Positions 26,213 to 51,087 are shown, counted from the first letter of the stretch. The stretch is 56,410 nt of DNA from an uncultured Actinomycetes bacterium (GCA_903873715.1 CAIQPS010000006.1:1-56410), one strand, 5' to 3'. Notes: generated by a model from the sequence alone, not told the origin. Program-made: numbers and translations.

Positions 26213-28840
26213 TTACTCGGTGATCCCCGCGATGCACGGCCCTGCCGTGATGTGGCACTCGCGGGCGAAGGCATCGGGATACTTGCGCCTGAGCTCCTCG
26301 AGGTCGGTCTTCTCGACCTCCACGAGGAACCCGGACACGGCCATCCCCACGGTGTTCTTGGACGTGCAGTTCCGCGGCACGATGGTGTTGATCACCCCAC
26401 CCCGGTCGATCTCGCCCGGCACGATGGGGTCGTACTTGGCGCCGTGGTCGATACCGACGGCCCCGGCCATGATGCGCTCGGTCACGAAGGCCCCGCCCAG
26501 CACCACGCCCCGTTCGTTGTAGATGGAGACCACGTCGCCGTGCTTGATGCCCCGGGCCGCGGCGTCCGCCGGGTTCATCCACAGCGGGTGGTACTGATAC
26601 CCGTCGCTCGCCCGGATCTTGCAGGTCTCGATCTCGCGGAACCAGGTGACGTCGTCATGCTGGGAGTGCACTCCCCAGCGCGGGTGGTTGCTCATGACCA
26701 GCAGCGGGTACTTCTTGCTCCGCTCGGTGCCGATGGTCTCCTGATGTGACTCGCCCTCGGGGATCCAGTGCGGCACCGGGGGGCGTTCCGGGTCGTTGGG
26801 GAAGTGCTCGGCCAGGCCGGTGGCGTAGAACTCCAACTTGCCGGTGGGCGTCTGGAGCGGGTTGGCGACCGGGTCTTCCCAGAACTTGTAGAAGCCGGCC
26901 GGCACGCTCTCCCAGTCGTCCGTCGGTGGTACCACGAAGTAGCCCTTCTCCAGCCACTCGTCCCAGGTTATGTGTTCGGACACCGGGCACTTGTCGAAGC
27001 CGTCGCGGATGATGTCCGGCACGCTCATCCCGTTGGTGTATTCCTCGAGCAGGCCGAGTTTCTCGGCGATCTTGCAGACCACCTCGTAGTCGCTCACCGA
27101 CTCGCCGAGGGACTCCATGCACCGCGGCTCGGGATAGAGCATGTCCATCTGCCCGGAGAACACGTCGGAGCCGATGTCGTCCTCTTCCAGCTTGGTGTTG
27201 ACCGGCAGCAGGAGGTCGGCGAAGAGCGCGTCGTTCTCGATCCAGGGATGCTGGCACATGACGAACTCGATGTCGTCGTGCTTGAGCGCCCGGATGAAGT
27301 TGTTGCCGTCGTTCCAGCAGGTGATCCAGGAGGGGGAGTCGGTCCAGATCATGTGGATCTTGGAGGCTCCCGGCGCCGGATAGGTGTACTTGATGAACTG
27401 GTCCTCGCGGGGGCTGCGCATCCCGTAGCGGTTGCCGTACCACTCGCCCTCGCCTTCGAGGATGAGTTTGGGCACCAGGGTCTTGGGGACGCAGGAGTCG
27501 CGCTTCTCCTCGGCGGGGCCGTCGCCGCGGTACGCCGCGTCGATGTTGCACTGGATGGACGGCATCGGGGCGGCCTGGTTCTCCGGCAGCAGGGAGAGGG
27601 CCCACTCGATCATCTTGGCCTGGTTGACGCCCGGCTTGCCGAGGCCCTGCATGCCGAGCAGCAACGCCTGCAGCCGCGCGGGCTCGGTGGCGTACGGTCC
27701 GCGGATGGCGGGGCCGCCGTTGGAGATGACCACGGTGGTGCGCTTGGAGGCCCATTCGTCGGCGAGGGCCTTTATGATGCGGGCTGACACGCCGGTGATG
27801 GGCTCGGCCCATTCGGGGGTCTTGGCCACTCCGTCCTCTTCACCCATGACGTAGGCCTCGAACTGGTCGACGCCGTAGGCGTGGCTCTCGAGGTAGGCCT
27901 TGTCGTAGGTGCCCTTGTCGAACCAGCGGTGGGCGATGGCCAGGTAGAGGGCCGCATCGGTGTTGGGCAGCACCGGGATCCACTTGTCGGCGTGCACGGC
28001 GTTGCCGTAGTTGACGTCCGGCGCCACGTAGATCTGCTTGATGCCCAATTCCTTCCACCAGTAGCAGAAGCGGCTCACCAGCTGGCCGCCCCAGCCCCAG
28101 GGCGTGGTCTCGGGGTCGCATCCCCAGAAGAGGAGCAGTTCGGCGTTCTTGCTGATGTCGTAGAGCAGGTTGCTCTGCGGCAGTTGCTGGCCGATGAACT
28201 CGCATCCCCAGACGTGCTTGGCGCCCCAGTACCAGCCTTCCCAGGAGTCGGCGTTGCGGACCTGGTGGGTGTAGCCGCCGAAAAGATCGAGGAGCTTGCG
28301 GCCGCAGCCATGCGGGCCGTGGACGGTCTTGTTCTCGCCGTGCTGGTCGTTCTGATAGAGGATGGCGGTGGGTCCGTAGGTGTCCTTGATGCGGTTCATC
28401 TCGCCCGTGACGATGTCGAGGGCCTCGTCCCAGCTGATGCGCACGTACTTGGAGGTGCCGCGGTTCTGGATGTTGCGGCCGCCTGGGCCGGTGGAGCCGG
28501 GCGCGCCGCTCGGGTCGAAGTCCACGCGCTTCATGGGATAGCGGATGCGGGCGGGCGAGAAGATGCGCTTCTTGTAGCAGAGGGAAAGCGGTGGCGGCAG
28601 GGTCTTGTCGCCGGGATCGAAGGTCTTGCCGCGGGCTTTCATGACCCAGGGCTTCACCTGCTCCTTGGTGTACTGGTCGTAGAAGCGGGCGGGGCGTATG
28701 CGGATGACCTTGTCGTCCTTGGAGTCCACCATGCAGGCATTGCCGCCCCAGCTGACCCCGATGAAACACATGTCGCGGACGATCACCTTCTCGCCTGCGG
28801 CGTTCACCGGACCCTTGAACTCGAGTCTCTCCTCCCGCAT
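26213..28840 (-). CDS. Molybdopterin oxidoreductase, pyrogallol-phloroglucinol transhydroxylase large-subunit type
   Basis: 875 residues from the ATG at 28840 (GGGAGGAG upstream); this equals the length I recall for the Pelobacter acidigallici enzyme AthL. It has a DMSO-reductase-family fold with no N-terminal Cys motif for a 4Fe-4S cluster and no Tat signal, so it should be cytoplasmic. Gly-Ser-Thr-Gly-Pro-Gly-Gly-Arg (about 115-122) and Asn-Ala-Asp198-Ser199-Trp200-Glu-Gly occur as in transhydroxylase, where Ser175 ligates molybdenum and Asp174/His144 are catalytic (from memory); His167 is the candidate partner here. Relatives act on polyhydroxybenzenes (transhydroxylase, resorcinol hydroxylase). 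No small electron-transfer subunit is adjacent. An operator-like inverted repeat lies at its promoter. Confidence 0.88.
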   Translation of the reverse strand: MREERLEFKGPVNAAGEKVIVRDMCFIGVSWGGNACMVDSKDDKVIRIRPARFYDQYTKEQVKPWVMKARGKTFDPGDKTLPPPLSLCYKKRIFSPARIRYPMKRVDFDPSGAPGSTGPGGRNIQNRGTSKYVRISWDEALDIVTGEMNRIKDTYGPTAILYQNDQHGENKTVHGPHGCGRKLLDLFGGYTHQVRNADSWEGWYWGAKHVWGCEFIGQQLPQSNLLYDISKNAELLLFWGCDPETTPWGWGGQLVSRFCYWWKELGIKQIYVAPDVNYGNAVHADKWIPVLPNTDAALYLAIAHRWFDKGTYDKAYLESHAYGVDQFEAYVMGEEDGVAKTPEWAEPITGVSARIIKALADEWASKRTTVVISNGGPAIRGPYATEPARLQALLLGMQGLGKPGVNQAKMIEWALSLLPENQAAPMPSIQCNIDAAYRGDGPAEEKRDSCVPKTLVPKLILEGEGEWYGNRYGMRSPREDQFIKYTYPAPGASKIHMIWTDSPSWITCWNDGNNFIRALKHDDIEFVMCQHPWIENDALFADLLLPVNTKLEEDDIGSDVFSGQMDMLYPEPRCMESLGESVSDYEVVCKIAEKLGLLEEYTNGMSVPDIIRDGFDKCPVSEHITWDEWLEKGYFVVPPTDDWESVPAGFYKFWEDPVANPLQTPTGKLEFYATGLAEHFPNDPERPPVPHWIPEGESHQETIGTERSKKYPLLVMSNHPRWGVHSQHDDVTWFREIETCKIRASDGYQYHPLWMNPADAAARGIKHGDVVSIYNERGVVLGGAFVTERIMAGAVGIDHGAKYDPIVPGEIDRGGVINTIVPRNCTSKNTVGMAVSGFLVEVEKTDLEELRRKYPDAFARECHITAGPCIAGITE

Positions 28841-40425: not shown

Positions 40426-40449
40426 TAAAATCGCGAGTGAGCGCTCACT
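40426..40449 (+). promoter_or_regulatory. -10 box and TetR-like operator before the second transhydroxylase-type gene
   Basis: TAAAAT (40426-40431) is a good -10. AGTGAGCGCTCACT (40436-40449) is a perfect 14-bp palindrome over the predicted transcription start, where a repressor would block initiation. A ribosome site GGAGG follows at 40459-40463. Confidence 0.6.
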
Positions 40450-40472: not shown

Positions 40473-43142
40473 ATGACGACGGTATCGGGGGAGACCAAGC
40501 GGCTGACGACGTGTACCAACGGCGGACCGCTGTTCGTGGACGTTGAGGACGGCCGGATCGTCCGCATGACCCCCATCGAGTTCGACGAGACGGACGCCGC
40601 TTCGTGGTCCATCAAAGCCCGGGGCCGCACGTTCAGCCCGCCCCGCAAGACCACCGGCTCGCCGTACACTGTGGCCTATCGGTCGCTCGTCTATTCGCCC
40701 AAGCGCATCCTGACCCCGCTCAAGCGGGTGGACTTCGACCCCGCCGGCGCCCCCGGCTCCACCGGCCCCGGCGGCCGCAACGCCCAGAATCGCGGCGTCT
40801 CCGGCTACGAGCCCATCTCCTGGGACGACGCGCTCGACATCGTCGCGAGCGAGATCAAGCGGGTCAAGCGCGAGCACGGCCCCGGCGCCATCCTGAGCAC
40901 GCCGAGTTCCCATCACATGTGGGGCAACATCGGGTACCGGCACAGCACGTACTTCCGCTTCATGAACCTGGTGGGCTTCACTTACGGCGAGCACAACCCC
41001 GACTCCTGGGAGGGCTGGCACTGGGGCGCCACCCACATGTGGGGCCAGAGCCACCGCCTCGGCCTGCCCGAGCAGTACGACCTGCTTGAAGACGCGCTGA
41101 AACACTCCGAGATGATCGTCTTCTGGTCCGCCGACCCCGAGGCCACCTGCGGCGGTATCTACGCCGCCTTCGAGAGCACGCCGCGCCGCGGATGGCTCAA
41201 GGATCTGGGCGTGAAAATGATCGCGATCGATCCCTACTACAACCACACCGCCGGCATGTGGGCGGACAAGTGGTTCGCTCCCCGGCCGGGCACCGACGTG
41301 GCGCTGGCGCTGGCCATCGCCTGGGTGTGGCTGACCGAGGGCACCTACGACAAGAAGTACGTGGCCCAGCGGACGGTCGGGTTCGGCCAGTGGAAGGACT
41401 ACGTGCTGGGGGTGAGCGCGGCCGGCACCGGCGGCGCGGCGGGGGCAGGCGTCGATGCCGTCGCCAAGACCCCGGAGTGGGCTGAAGCTGAGACCGGCAT
41501 CCCGGCGCGGGAGATCAGGGCTCTCGCGCGCGAATGGGCGGCGAAGAAGACCATGGTCGCTCCCGGCAGCAACCACGGCATGGGTGGGGCCTGCCGTTCC
41601 GCCACGGGCAACGAGTGGACCCGGGCGATCGTGGCGCTGGCCGCCATGCAGGGCATGGGCAAACCGGGCAGCAACATCTGGGCGACCACCACCGGTACCC
41701 CGCTCGACACCACCTTCGTCATGGACGGCTACGCCGAGGGTGGCATCTCCGGCGATGTGGATAACTCCGCAGCCGGCTTCCGCTGGGTGTTCCGCATGTT
41801 CCCCAAGGGCGGCGCCACCCGCACCGCCCATCACTCCACCGAGGGCCAGACCGTCGACCGGCTGCGTATCCCCGAGGCCATGATGGGCGAGAAGCTCGAA
41901 TGGCGCGGTAAGGGCTTCTGCGGCAGCTCCATCGAGAGCCAGTTCAAGCTCTACAAGTACCCGGCGTCCGGCTACTCGCCGGTGGCCATGTACTACCGCT
42001 ACGGCGGCTCCTACCTGGGCACCATGACCGAAAGCAACCGCTTCGCCCGCGCGTATCGGGAGGGGACGGTCGAGTTCGTGGTGAACCAGAACGTCTGGTT
42101 CGAGGGGGAGACCAAGTTCGCGGACATCGTGCTGCCGGCTTGCACCAACCTGGAGCGCTGGGACATCGCCGAGTGGGCGAACTGCTCCGGCTACATCCCC
42201 GACTCGTACGGCATGGTGAACCACCGGGTGATAATGCTGCAGAACAAGTGCATCGAACCGCTGGGCGAGTCGAAGTCCGACTACGCGATCTTCGCCGAGT
42301 TGTCCAAGCGCCTCGGCCTGTGGGAGATCTTCACCGCCGGCGGCAAGACCGAGTACGACTGGGTGAAGCAATCCTTCTACGCCTCCGACCTGCCGACCGT
42401 CATCAGCTGGGAGGACTTCGAGAAGAAGGGCTACTACGTGGTGCCGCCCCGCCCGGCCGGCCATAAGTCCACGCCGGCGTTCCGCTGGTTCGCCGAAGAC
42501 CGCCCGCGCGACACGCCCGACTGGGGCCCCCACCCCGCCGACCAGGTGGATCTCAAGGGCCTGCAGACGTCCACCGGCAAGATCGAGTTCGTCTCCTCCA
42601 GCCTCACCCGCTTCGAGAAGACCGACGTCGTCGACCCGGAGCGCCCGCCACTCGGCCCCACGTACATCCCCAGCTGGGAAGGGCATCGCACGTCCGAGTT
42701 GGTGGCCAAGTACCCGCTGCAGATGATCTCGCCGCACCCGCGCTTCTCGTTCCACACCATGGGGGACGGGAAAGAGAGCTGGATGAACGAGGTGAAGGAC
42801 CACCGGGTACTCCACCGCGACGGCCACCACTACTGGATCATGCGCCTCAACCCGGGCGATGCAGCTGCCCGCGGCATCGCCGACGGCGACCTCATCCGCG
42901 CCTTCAACGACCGGGGCTCGGTGCTCCTGTCGGCGCAGGTGAGCGAGCGCGTGCGCCCCGGCGTGGTGCACTCCTACGAGAGTTGCGCCGACTACCTGCC
43001 CCTGGGGGAGCCCGGGCGCTCCACCGAGCGCGCCGGCTGCGTCAACAATCTCACGAGCAAGCGCTACATCACCCCGACATCCACGGCCATGGCGCCGAAC
43101 TCCTGCCTGGTGCAGGTGGAGAAGTGGGCCGGCGAACAATGA
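40473..43142 (+). CDS. Molybdopterin oxidoreductase, transhydroxylase/resorcinol hydroxylase large-subunit type
   Basis: 889 residues from the ATG at 40473, nine bases after GGAGG; a GTG at 40437 falls inside the operator and is rejected. Architecture as the 26213-28840 protein: no N-terminal 4Fe-4S Cys motif, no Tat signal, Gly-Ser-Thr-Gly-Pro-Gly-Gly-Arg and Asn-Pro-Asp177-Ser178-Trp179-Glu-Gly. His147 lies 30 residues before Asp177, the same spacing as His144/Asp174 in Pelobacter transhydroxylase (from memory). The two enzymes in this window are clear but divergent paralogues. The downstream gene is a resorcylate-decarboxylase-like amidohydrolase, which would make resorcinol a plausible substrate (inference). 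An iron-sulfur small subunit is not adjacent. Confidence 0.88.
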   Translation: MTTVSGETKRLTTCTNGGPLFVDVEDGRIVRMTPIEFDETDAASWSIKARGRTFSPPRKTTGSPYTVAYRSLVYSPKRILTPLKRVDFDPAGAPGSTGPGGRNAQNRGVSGYEPISWDDALDIVASEIKRVKREHGPGAILSTPSSHHMWGNIGYRHSTYFRFMNLVGFTYGEHNPDSWEGWHWGATHMWGQSHRLGLPEQYDLLEDALKHSEMIVFWSADPEATCGGIYAAFESTPRRGWLKDLGVKMIAIDPYYNHTAGMWADKWFAPRPGTDVALALAIAWVWLTEGTYDKKYVAQRTVGFGQWKDYVLGVSAAGTGGAAGAGVDAVAKTPEWAEAETGIPAREIRALAREWAAKKTMVAPGSNHGMGGACRSATGNEWTRAIVALAAMQGMGKPGSNIWATTTGTPLDTTFVMDGYAEGGISGDVDNSAAGFRWVFRMFPKGGATRTAHHSTEGQTVDRLRIPEAMMGEKLEWRGKGFCGSSIESQFKLYKYPASGYSPVAMYYRYGGSYLGTMTESNRFARAYREGTVEFVVNQNVWFEGETKFADIVLPACTNLERWDIAEWANCSGYIPDSYGMVNHRVIMLQNKCIEPLGESKSDYAIFAELSKRLGLWEIFTAGGKTEYDWVKQSFYASDLPTVISWEDFEKKGYYVVPPRPAGHKSTPAFRWFAEDRPRDTPDWGPHPADQVDLKGLQTSTGKIEFVSSSLTRFEKTDVVDPERPPLGPTYIPSWEGHRTSELVAKYPLQMISPHPRFSFHTMGDGKESWMNEVKDHRVLHRDGHHYWIMRLNPGDAAARGIADGDLIRAFNDRGSVLLSAQVSERVRPGVVHSYESCADYLPLGEPGRSTERAGCVNNLTSKRYITPTSTAMAPNSCLVQVEKWAGEQ

Positions 43143-43190
43143 GCGGCGCGCGCGGCGGCGCTCGTATGACGGTGTCTATCTCTCGAAGCG

Positions 43191-43224
43191 CATATGTTTG
43201 TGCGGGATATCGCACATTCATATG
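43191..43224. promoter_or_regulatory. Large imperfect palindrome before the amidohydrolase gene
   Basis: CATATG (43191-43196), TGTGCG (43199-43204), six bases, CGCACA (43211-43216) and CATATG (43219-43224) form nested inverted repeats in a 130-base gap between genes of the same strand. The core matches the site at 28860-28877. Confidence 0.65.
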
Positions 43225-43272
43225 TCCCTGCGCACATACCCTCGATCCACGTCGACCCAGCGGAGGCATCAG

Positions 43273-44298
43273 ATGAAGAAGATCGATCTCGAAGTCCACT
43301 TCGCCACCCAGGGCTGGGTGGACGCCCTAACGGCCAACCCCGGCTACCCGAAGCTTGCCAACGACCCGGTGAGCGGCAACCGTCGCCTCTACTACCAGGC
43401 GGACGCGGCCGAGCCCTATCCGGACGCCCTCCTCGCGAAGCTGCTGGACATCGGCGCGGGCCGCATCGCCGCGATGGACGCGGCCGGCATCGACGTGGCG
43501 GTGCTGTCGCTGACCGCCCCCGGCATCGAACAGCTGGAGCCGAAGTGGGCCAGCAAGCTGGCCCGCGAAGCCAACGACGAGCTGGCCGCGGCTTGCGCCA
43601 AGTACCCCGGCCGCTTCGTGGGCTACGCCGCCCTGTCGCCGAAAGACACGGACGAGGCCTGCAAGGAGCTGGAGCGCTGCGTCAAGGAACTCGGCTTCAA
43701 AGGCTGGAAGACGCACTGCAACTACGGCGACTCCTACATCGACGAGAAGCAGTACTGGCCCATCCTGGCGAAGGCCGCCGAGCTGGACGTGCCCATCTAC
43801 CTCCACCCGACCGTTCCCAAGATCAAGGAGTTCTGGACCTACGGTCTGGCGCTCGCGGGGCCGGGCTTCGGCTTCGGGATGGAGACGGCGCTCACCATGT
43901 TCCGGCTGGTGCTGAGCGGCGTGTTCGATGAGTATCCGAACCTCAAGTTCGGCGTGGGACACTACGGCGAGGGCCTGCCCTTCCTTCTCGACCGGGTGGA
44001 CTTCTCGGCCAACTTCGCGCACGTGGCCGCCGACTCGGGCGCCTTCGTGGCCCTCAAGCGGAAGCCCAGCGAGTATCTGCGCGACAACATGTGGGTGTCG
44101 ACGAGCTGCAACTACCTGCCCGGGGCCTTCAGCACCTCGTGGAACGACCTGGGCGCGACGCACGTGGTGCTCGGCACCGACTACCCCTACGGCAAGATGG
44201 ACGAGTGCATCGCGTTCCTCGAAGGCCGGGGCCTGTCGGACGCGGAGAAGGAGATGCTCTACGAGAAGAACGCGGCCGCTCTGGGCGTGACCGCCTAG
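43273..44298 (+). CDS. Amidohydrolase_2 family, gamma-resorcylate decarboxylase-like
   Basis: 341 residues from the ATG at 43273, six bases after GGAGG. Metal and catalytic residues align with gamma-resorcylate/2,3-dihydroxybenzoate decarboxylases: Glu7 and His9 in Leu-Glu-Val-His-Phe-Ala, His178 in Tyr-Leu-His-Pro, His230 in Gly-His-Tyr-Gly-Glu-Gly-Leu-Pro, Asp303 in Gly-Thr-Asp-Tyr-Pro. These enzymes remove CO2 from hydroxybenzoates without a cofactor; other members hydrolyse or hydrate ring-cleavage products. Placement after a transhydroxylase-type gene supports hydroxyaromatic metabolism. It may have its own regulated promoter, given the palindrome 49 bases upstream. Confidence 0.88.
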   Translation: MKKIDLEVHFATQGWVDALTANPGYPKLANDPVSGNRRLYYQADAAEPYPDALLAKLLDIGAGRIAAMDAAGIDVAVLSLTAPGIEQLEPKWASKLAREANDELAAACAKYPGRFVGYAALSPKDTDEACKELERCVKELGFKGWKTHCNYGDSYIDEKQYWPILAKAAELDVPIYLHPTVPKIKEFWTYGLALAGPGFGFGMETALTMFRLVLSGVFDEYPNLKFGVGHYGEGLPFLLDRVDFSANFAHVAADSGAFVALKRKPSEYLRDNMWVSTSCNYLPGAFSTSWNDLGATHVVLGTDYPYGKMDECIAFLEGRGLSDAEKEMLYEKNAAALGVTA

Positions 44299-44320
44299 GC
44301 GCCCCGGCAAGGAGGATGAC

Positions 44321-45118
44321 ATGAGACCCACGCGCGTAGCCCTGCTCGACGGTGGCTCGATGGCCATCGACGGCTACAAGGTGTATTGGAACCGGGGGCC
44401 CGGCGGCGACATCCGCTTCCCGGTGTACTCCGTGCTCGTCGACCACGAGGACGGCCTCTTCATCTACGACACCGGCTTCGACCTGGAGCACATGACCAAG
44501 TTCGTGCCCCAGGACCAGGCCATCCAGGCACCCGACCAGACGCTGCCCGGCCAGCTCGCCAAACTCGGCCTGAAGCCGGAAGACGTCACCCACGTGCTCA
44601 GCTCGCACCTCCACATCGACCATGCGGGCGGGCACAAGCACTTCCCCGGCGCGACCGTGGTCGTGCACGAGGACGAGTACGCGCAGGCGTCCAACCCGCC
44701 GCTGTTCGAGAAGCTCAGCTACTCCGATCTGAACTACGACGCCGTCCTCACCGCCAAGCGCGACAAGGTGGAACCGCCGGCGGGTGCGTTCGAGCCGAAG
44801 TACCGGTTCATCCGGGGCGACGTCGAGATCGCCAAGGACGTGTGGTTGTGGGAGACCCCCGGCCATGCCGCCGGCCATTACAGCCTCATGGTGAAGCCGG
44901 CCGGCCGCCGTCCCATGCTGTTCTGCGGCGATGTGGCCATGACCCCGCGCAACCTGGAACTGCTCTGCCTTGGCAGCTTCCACCTCGATCCGACCCGGGC
45001 CATCGCCTCGCTCCAGCGCGTCATCAAGCTGGCCGAGGAACACGACGCGGAGATCTTCTGCTCGCACAGCATGCCCGACTTCGTCACCTGGAAGAAAGCT
45101 CCCGAGTGGTACGAATAG
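44321..45118 (+). CDS. Metallo-beta-lactamase-fold hydrolase, AHL-lactonase-like
   Basis: 265 residues; CAAGGAGGATGAC precedes the ATG, 22 bases after the amidohydrolase stop. The dinuclear metal motif is His96-Leu-His98-Ile-Asp100-His101; further ligands are His in Gly-His-Ala-Ala-Gly-His and Asp in Cys-Gly-Asp-Val-Ala, and a late His in Ser-His-Ser-Met-Pro. Length and Asp-Thr-Gly-Phe-Asp resemble AttM/AiiB N-acyl-homoserine lactonases. In this operon a role in opening a lactone or ester intermediate of aromatic breakdown is as likely as quorum quenching. Confidence 0.9.
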   Translation: MRPTRVALLDGGSMAIDGYKVYWNRGPGGDIRFPVYSVLVDHEDGLFIYDTGFDLEHMTKFVPQDQAIQAPDQTLPGQLAKLGLKPEDVTHVLSSHLHIDHAGGHKHFPGATVVVHEDEYAQASNPPLFEKLSYSDLNYDAVLTAKRDKVEPPAGAFEPKYRFIRGDVEIAKDVWLWETPGHAAGHYSLMVKPAGRRPMLFCGDVAMTPRNLELLCLGSFHLDPTRAIASLQRVIKLAEEHDAEIFCSHSMPDFVTWKKAPEWYE

Positions 45119-50691: not shown

Positions 50692-51087
50692 TCACCCCAC
50701 CGCCGTCGCCTCTATCTCTATCAGCCAGTCCGGATCGGCGAGCCTGCTGACGCCCAGCAAGGTCGAGGCCGGTTTGCAGCCGGCCGCCTTGAGGCGGTCG
50801 CCCAGGACGGCAGTCGCTTCGAGAAAGGCCGGCACGTCGGTGACGTAGTAGTTGAGCCGCACCACGTCGCCCAAGCCGAGTCCGGCGTGGCCGAGGACGT
50901 TCTCCAGGTTGTCGAGACAGCGGTGGAACTGGGCCACCATGTCGCCGGGGTGGAGGGTGGCGCCCTGCGCGTCCACGGACGTCTGGCCGGCGCAGTAGAC
51001 CACCCGTCCGGCGCCCGTGACCTCGATGGCCTGGGAGAAGTCGAACTGGTCCTGCCAGTCTCCTGGGTTGATGGAGCGTCTCTCCAT
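50692..51087 (-). CDS. RidA family protein
   Basis: 131 residues; AAGGA six bases before the ATG, which lies two bases after the stop of the hydrolase gene. The fold shows Val-Val-Tyr-Cys-Ala-Gly-Gln-Thr, Gln-Phe-His-Arg-Cys-Leu-Asp-Asn-Leu, Asn-Tyr-Tyr-Val-Thr-Asp and a C-terminal Ile-Glu-Ile-Glu-Ala-Thr-Ala. The usual Arg105 of enamine deaminases is not obvious near Cys-Lys-Pro-Ala-Ser-Thr, so the activity may differ. Coupling to an alpha/beta hydrolase suggests a small degradative step rather than general enamine detoxification. Confidence 0.9.
   Translation of the reverse strand: MERRSINPGDWQDQFDFSQAIEVTGAGRVVYCAGQTSVDAQGATLHPGDMVAQFHRCLDNLENVLGHAGLGLGDVVRLNYYVTDVPAFLEATAVLGDRLKAAGCKPASTLLGVSRLADPDWLIEIEATAVG

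Follow-up and report, generated by a model that had tools for sequence, protein, structure and literature searches.

Three consecutive genes for putative polyphenol enzymes

We analysed a 56,410-nt stretch of DNA from an uncultured Actinomycetes bacterium (GCA_903873715.1, CAIQPS010000006.1:1-56410), here called the window, with a focus on the region 40473-45118. This region holds three consecutive plus-strand open reading frames (ORFs), which encode a molybdoenzyme resembling the large subunit of pyrogallol transhydroxylase (AthL), an amidohydrolase (AMH) and a metallo-β-lactamase (MBL)-fold hydrolase (Table 1). A first-pass annotation, made from the sequence of the window, had described the three enzymes as consecutive parts of one cluster. 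The genes are real and correctly placed, and the ORFs confirm their succession. AthL contains the Pfam domains PF00384 (Molybdopterin), PF21423 (AhtL-like_1st) and Molydop_binding, with a score of 96.9 bits (cutoff 27) against PF21423, domain 1 of the pyrogallol hydroxytransferase large subunit. AMH belongs to PF04909 (Amidohydro_2) and MBL, whose start is preceded by a ribosome-binding-like AAGGAGG, to PF00753 (Lactamase_B).

Table 1. Features of the three-gene region and positions of AthS genes with an altered cluster ligand (L numbers denote loci in the host genome and in other genomes)
Feature	Position	Strand	Basis
AthL: pyrogallol-transhydroxylase-type molybdoenzyme large subunit, 889 aa, without adjacent Fe-S subunit	40473..43142	+	homology, tree, active-site residues
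AMH: predicted non-oxidative aromatic decarboxylase of the amidohydrolase-2 family, 341 aa	43273..44298	+	Pfam, profile, predicted structure
MBL: MBL-fold hydrolase related to 4-pyridoxolactonase, 265 aa, 22 bp after AMH	44321..45118	+	NCBIfam, PDB homology, predicted structure
Perfect 14-bp palindrome, possibly operator-like, 23 bp upstream of the AthL start	40436..40449	.	sole window match even at 2 mismatches
34-bp repeated hairpin copy between AthL and AMH (core at 43199-43216)	43191..43224	.	
AthS with Cys23→Asp, host genome	L013:11036-11884; L016:7627-8469; L026:880-1719		alignment
AthS with Cys23→Asp, relatives	L089, L096, L101		alignment

Two intergenic elements accompany the genes. 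The palindrome AGTGAGCGCTCACT upstream of AthL, which we tentatively read as operator-like, has a single match in the window when two mismatches are allowed, against ∼0.2 expected by chance. Between AthL and AMH lies a 34-bp inverted repeat (consensus CATAYGATTGTGCGRRATMYCGCACAATCRTATG) whose core, TGTGCG-N6-CGCACA, occurs 15 times in the host genome (0 for a control pattern), that is, at 14 places besides the window copy (for example L083:6412 and L085:9317). Its outer arms covary. Most copies follow closely on a stop codon or separate two convergent genes; none separates divergent ones. The element is thus a candidate transcript-end or REP-like element, and probably a transcript-end hairpin. 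Three of seven AMH genes have a copy within 100 bp, which had suggested the operator of a regulon of AMH genes; we rejected this role because copies that sit at the 3′ ends of genes or separate convergent ones favour a transcript-end element. As a transcript end probably lies between them, AthL and the AMH–MBL pair may be separate transcription units; the description as one cluster holds for contiguity and strand, and is weakened by the hairpin.

The molybdoenzyme groups with pyrogallol transhydroxylases

Among all PDB sequences, the best match of AthL was the large subunit of pyrogallol hydroxytransferase from Pelobacter acidigallici (4v4c_A), with 1195.6 bits over an end-to-end alignment; DMSO reductase, as the next family, reached 213 bits. 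We aligned AthL to the P. acidigallici enzyme at eight active-site positions, a list (including Ser175 as molybdenum ligand) that we take to be that of the 2004 structure work on pyrogallol transhydroxylase. Seven of the eight residues are retained (His144, Tyr152, Asp174, Ser175, Trp176, Tyr404 and Tyr560) and are also kept in most of 97 homologues. The eighth, Trp354, is Met in the window AthL, with Asn-His in the same loop, at a position that varies across the family (Trp in 46, Phe in 27 and Met in 8 sequences).

Two trees paired the window AthL with that of the metagenome-assembled genome FK_Sedi_B_Bin.10 (100%) inside an actinobacterial clade of 11 members (100%). This clade joined the AthL proteins of P. 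acidigallici and Eubacterium oxidoreducens with moderate support (86/79), in trees whose homologues from named genomes were the 80 nearest and which held no authentic resorcinol hydroxylase (RehL); Desulfosporosinus AthL fell just outside (90/91). Plasmid-borne molybdoenzyme matches that we considered as RehL candidates belonged to a different clade, with no recognisable resorcinol genes, and were set aside. Resorcinol hydroxylase is a member of the same Ser-ligand molybdoenzyme family (PMC10100899). The molybdoenzyme had been annotated as of transhydroxylase or resorcinol hydroxylase type: full-length homology and the trees, which held no RehL, place it among polyphenol enzymes and favour the former type. 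AthL probably carries out hydroxyl-transfer-type chemistry on a polyphenol.

A second, more distant AthL-like molybdoenzyme is encoded in the window at 26213-28840 on the minus strand (41% identity to the first). It too has no adjacent small subunit (AthS), although its nearest paralogues have one.

The amidohydrolase resembles aromatic decarboxylases

Profile searches placed AMH closest to LigW (275 bits), γ-resorcylate decarboxylase (γ-RSD, 259 bits) and 5-carboxyvanillate decarboxylase (258 bits), well ahead of ACMSD (146 bits) and oxalomesaconate hydratase (82 bits). The predicted structure (pLDDT 90) gave the same picture, with Z scores of 40.9 for LigW and 39 for γ-RSD over 306-323 residues. 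All five metal-site residues named in the first-pass annotation as the full γ-resorcylate decarboxylase set (Glu7, His9, His178, His230 and Asp303) are present, and they are invariant or nearly so in 20 homologues; His178, His230 and Asp303 align with His164, His218 and Asp287 of 2dvt. Profile and fold thus keep AMH apart from the hydratases and ACMSD, and we consider an aromatic decarboxylase a likely assignment. Neither placement that would have told against the first-pass annotation, AMH among hydratases or ACMSD and the molybdoenzyme away from polyphenol enzymes, was observed. The label 'resorcylate decarboxylase-like' probably survives as to the reaction and not as to the substrate, since LigW and γ-RSD score alike.

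The host genome encodes six further AMH copies (48-62% identity). By eye, AMH paralogues in relatives (L073, L074, L078, L079 and L080) adjoin aldehyde:ferredoxin oxidoreductase-like proteins of 623-624 aa, some of these pairs being accompanied by a small MoaD-like gene.

The MBL-fold hydrolase is a diverged relative of 4-pyridoxolactonase

MBL clears the NCBIfam cutoff for 4-pyridoxolactonase by a small margin (341.9 versus 325 bits), its predicted model matches 4-pyridoxolactonase (4keq) with a Z score of 38.7, and its zinc site is kept (HxHxDH, His182, Asp204 and His249). The MBLs linked to an AMH (window, L068 and L069) form a supported clade (97/94), and all three depart from residues that the rest of the compared pyridoxolactonase-like set keeps invariant; the shared substitutions include Tyr210→Met, Asp253→Ser, Phe99→Ile and Gly133→Ser. 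If Tyr210 and Asp253 define the 4-pyridoxolactonase family, as we read them, MBL would lie outside it. Position 210 aligns with a Tyr of AiiA-type lactonases, presumably a substrate-contacting residue. The substrate has probably shifted and would probably still be a lactone or ester; whether it is an aromatic one we would put at even odds. The earlier description as lactonase-like is therefore sound as regards the nearest relative, while lactonase activity itself, with Tyr210 lost, is putative.

No SDR-type pyridoxal 4-dehydrogenase scored over the cutoff in the host or in the relatives G004 and G006, compared with two in a control genome (G193). At both L183 and L186, the MBL homologue is found close to a gene resembling pyridoxamine-pyruvate transaminase, and that of L183 also adjoins a pyridoxal 4-dehydrogenase.

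The trio recurs in another genus, and AMH relatives lie in polyphenol clusters

FK_Sedi_B_Bin.10 (G004), which belongs to another genus of the same family, carries AthL, AMH and MBL in identical order; AthL and AMH are 47 bp apart there, and the gap holds no 34-bp hairpin. Outside the actinobacteria, a deltaproteobacterial AMH homologue (L122) overlaps the end of a run of genes for cyclase, BKACE, SDR, 3HCDH, AthL, AthS and a second molybdenum enzyme, followed by TRAP transporter genes. In deltaproteobacterial bin73 (L094; 5.1 Mb, with one close AMH and three AthL places), AMH lies ∼4 kb from an AthL among TRAP genes and near an AthLS pair, and two more AMH homologues (L209 and L210) are also found among TRAP-type transporter genes. 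TRAP transporters often carry carboxylates, so the simplest reading would be that an aromatic acid is imported, decarboxylated and passed to AthL. The idea that the three genes serve one pathway, already part of the first-pass annotation, gains from both the recurrence in another genus and the anaerobic polyphenol context of AMH relatives.

RidA-like small proteins, noticed by eye, recur near AthL, AMH or MBL loci (window 50692-51087 on the minus strand, L094:12836-13282, L036:1018-1425 and L087:890-1180).

Transhydroxylase-like genes are multiplied and a phloroglucinol gene set is present

The host genome (G000; 3.33 Mb in 169 contigs) contains 17 AthL-like places at E below 1e-80. At E ≤ 1e-60 the count, which takes in fragments at contig ends, is again 17, and relatives have 28, 18, 15 and 14; overall, ∼9 to 28 places per genome were found in the host and its family relatives (G001, G004, G006, G008, G010, G015, G016 and G017). 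Three non-actinobacterial genomes that carry AthL have only 2-3. AthL-like molybdoenzymes have thus undergone a large lineage-specific multiplication. At E ≤ 1e-200, the host alone among 296 sampled genomes of the phylum had a match. An apparent internal TAG in the match on contig C29, considered as a recoded stop, sits at the ORF end and is a normal stop.

On contig C69 (L026, 2-6309), genes for AthL (cut by the contig end), AthS, Cyclase, 3HCDH, SDR, Cupin and BKACE stand in a row, which we read as a putative phloroglucinol pathway cluster in an actinobacterium. On contig C84 (L013, 8385-17506), inspection by eye revealed an AthLS pair and, ∼3 kb further along, genes resembling the E1 and lipoyl components of 2-oxoacid dehydrogenases, an arrangement that we take to resemble the hydroxybenzoquinone branch of Azoarcus. 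These genes possibly form a resorcinol/hydroxyhydroquinone branch.

The Fe-S subunit is altered and often not adjacent to AthL

Thirteen AthS-type small subunits are encoded in the host genome, each adjoining an AthL, yet none lies beside the window AthL or elsewhere on its contig, and the other AthL-like gene of the window lacks one as well. At L087, the AthL of the trio likewise has no AthS neighbour, nor do L088, L090 and L091 of the same clade, and the distribution of the AthS-less state on the AthL tree requires several separate changes. Where AthS is present in the actinobacterial clade, Cys23 (P. acidigallici numbering), a cluster-ligand position, is Asp in six of six cases, as opposed to none of ∼80 AthS outside it. 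In this lineage, the Fe-S subunit therefore differs in a ligand and is often not encoded next to AthL. The window AthL would either borrow one of the 13 AthS encoded elsewhere or function without one, supply in trans being equally possible. In the sister trio, an aldo/keto-reductase-like ORF (L087, 1685-2491) overlaps the AthL start and ends in a CxxCxxCxxxCP ferredoxin motif; it is a possible redox partner.

A proposed decarboxylation route and its alternatives

We propose, at roughly even odds, that the three genes form a peripheral cassette for the anaerobic breakdown of a hydroxylated aromatic acid (or of its lactone or ester) and feed phloroglucinol degradation. In the substrates and order of steps that we infer, MBL would open an aryl lactone (or ester) and expose a hydroxybenzoate-type carboxylate, and AMH, through its E-x-H...H...H...D metal site, would remove CO2 non-oxidatively and leave a polyhydroxybenzene. 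AthL, its molybdenum held by the transhydroxylase serine, would then transfer or shift a hydroxyl group on the ring, and the product would enter the host's own putative phloroglucinol pathway on contig C69. That all three enzymes act in one pathway we judge just as evenly balanced. Several points weigh against the proposal. The substrate is not readable from sequence, and AMH, being equally close to LigW and γ-RSD, does not reveal 'resorcylate' as its substrate. With Tyr210 missing from MBL, lactone hydrolysis is uncertain. The full trio occurs in two genomes only, G006 (Chersky_299) has an MBL–AMH pair with no AthL beside it, and the hairpin in the window splits AthL from AMH–MBL, which may make them two transcription units.

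The hairpin and the solitary MBL–AMH pair of G006 also favour regarding AthL and the AMH–MBL pair as functionally unrelated neighbours, the more so as 17 AthL-like and seven close AMH genes in one genome ease chance adjacency. The conserved order in another genus, where the two genes are 47 bp apart with no hairpin, and the AMH–AthL neighbourhood in deltaproteobacteria speak against chance, and we regard this explanation as rather unlikely, if deserving of some weight. The first-pass annotation had instead proposed a route from resorcylate via resorcinol to hydroxyhydroquinone, in which AMH would make resorcinol from 2,6-dihydroxybenzoate and a RehLS-type molybdoenzyme would hydroxylate it. 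The closeness of AMH to γ-RSD agrees with this, as do the E1/lipoyl genes 3 kb from another AthLS on C84, with the likeness to Azoarcus that we assume, and the family shared by AthL and resorcinol hydroxylase (PMC10100899). AthL, however, groups with the transhydroxylases of P. acidigallici and E. oxidoreducens. A net hydroxylation would require electrons to be withdrawn, but the adjacent Fe-S subunit is missing; the host carries a phloroglucinol gene set instead, and the lactonase that the annotation itself named is left with no role. This specific route is thus not supported, and we find it improbable; decarboxylation feeding a pyrogallol/phloroglucinol pathway fits better. A pyridine (vitamin B6-like) substrate, with MBL opening 4-pyridoxolactone, AMH decarboxylating the ortho-hydroxy acid and AthL hydroxylating 3-hydroxypyridine, would suit the NCBIfam score and the fold of MBL as well as the homologues in the B6-type clusters of L183 and L186. 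It seems about as improbable, given that the SDR-type dehydrogenase is lacking over the cutoff in G000, G004 and G006, that AMH-linked MBLs are a clade of their own with Tyr210→Met, Asp253→Ser and other changes, and that AthL and AMH relatives are located in polyphenol clusters.

A bolder version of the proposed cassette is unlikely: an AthL freed of its Fe-S subunit, a repurposed 4-pyridoxolactonase-like hydrolase and AMH might together degrade aryl-lactone polyphenols (ellagic acid, for example) anaerobically in the environment, in an actinobacterial lineage that has multiplied transhydroxylases into a polyphenol toolkit and whose Fe-S partner has changed Cys to Asp and been repeatedly lost.

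Plant polyphenols were long regarded as nearly inert without oxygen, as in the 'enzyme latch' of peat (PMC10470551). If our proposal is true, it identifies a family of decarboxylase genes that could supply uncultured anaerobes with substrate for their phloroglucinol pathway. We know of no identified gene for such a decarboxylation step in Pelobacter-type fermenters. For permafrost, palsa and sediment, it would also single out a candidate polyphenol degrader, namely an actinobacterial family with ∼9 to 28 transhydroxylase-like places in most of its sampled genomes. Each part of the trio is a known enzyme family; as far as we could find, what is new is their combination, the lack of the subunit and the multiplication specific to this lineage.

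Comparison with known systems

The window AthL shares with AthLS of P. acidigallici (4v4c) its full-length homology, the molybdenum-ligand Ser and the active-site His, Asp, Tyr and Trp residues, and differs in the absence of an adjacent AthS, in Met at Trp354 and in having a decarboxylase and an MBL hydrolase as neighbours. AMH has the fold and metal-site residues of γ-resorcylate decarboxylase (2dvt, 3s4t) and LigW (4qrn), its best profile and structure matches; it is ∼34-38% identical to them and belongs to a separate multi-copy clade. With 4-pyridoxolactonase (3aj3, 4keq), MBL has 47% identity, the zinc-site motif and a score above the NCBIfam cutoff in common; it departs in Tyr210→Met and Asp253→Ser, and in a host genome with no SDR-type pyridoxal dehydrogenase over the cutoff.

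At the level of pathways, the host resembles Clostridium scatologenes, whose phloroglucinol route uses enzyme types matching the C69 set (PMC10470551), in the PGR-, cyclase-, 3HCDH- and BKACE-type genes; the set lies on another contig with its own AthLS, outside the trio. A parallel to the trio itself is the ellagic acid cluster of Gordonibacter (PMC12771579): its metal-dependent decarboxylase Eah, which stands next to molybdenum enzymes, opens ellagic acid and decarboxylates it. That precedent makes ellagic-acid-type substrates a testable idea and no more. Both systems would place an amidohydrolase-type metal-dependent decarboxylase beside a molybdenum enzyme acting on a polyphenol, a likeness drawn for Eah by description and not by sequence. 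In Gordonibacter, by contrast, Eah alone opens the lactone, and the molybdenum enzymes are catechol dehydroxylases, a clade distinct from AthL (PMC7028382).

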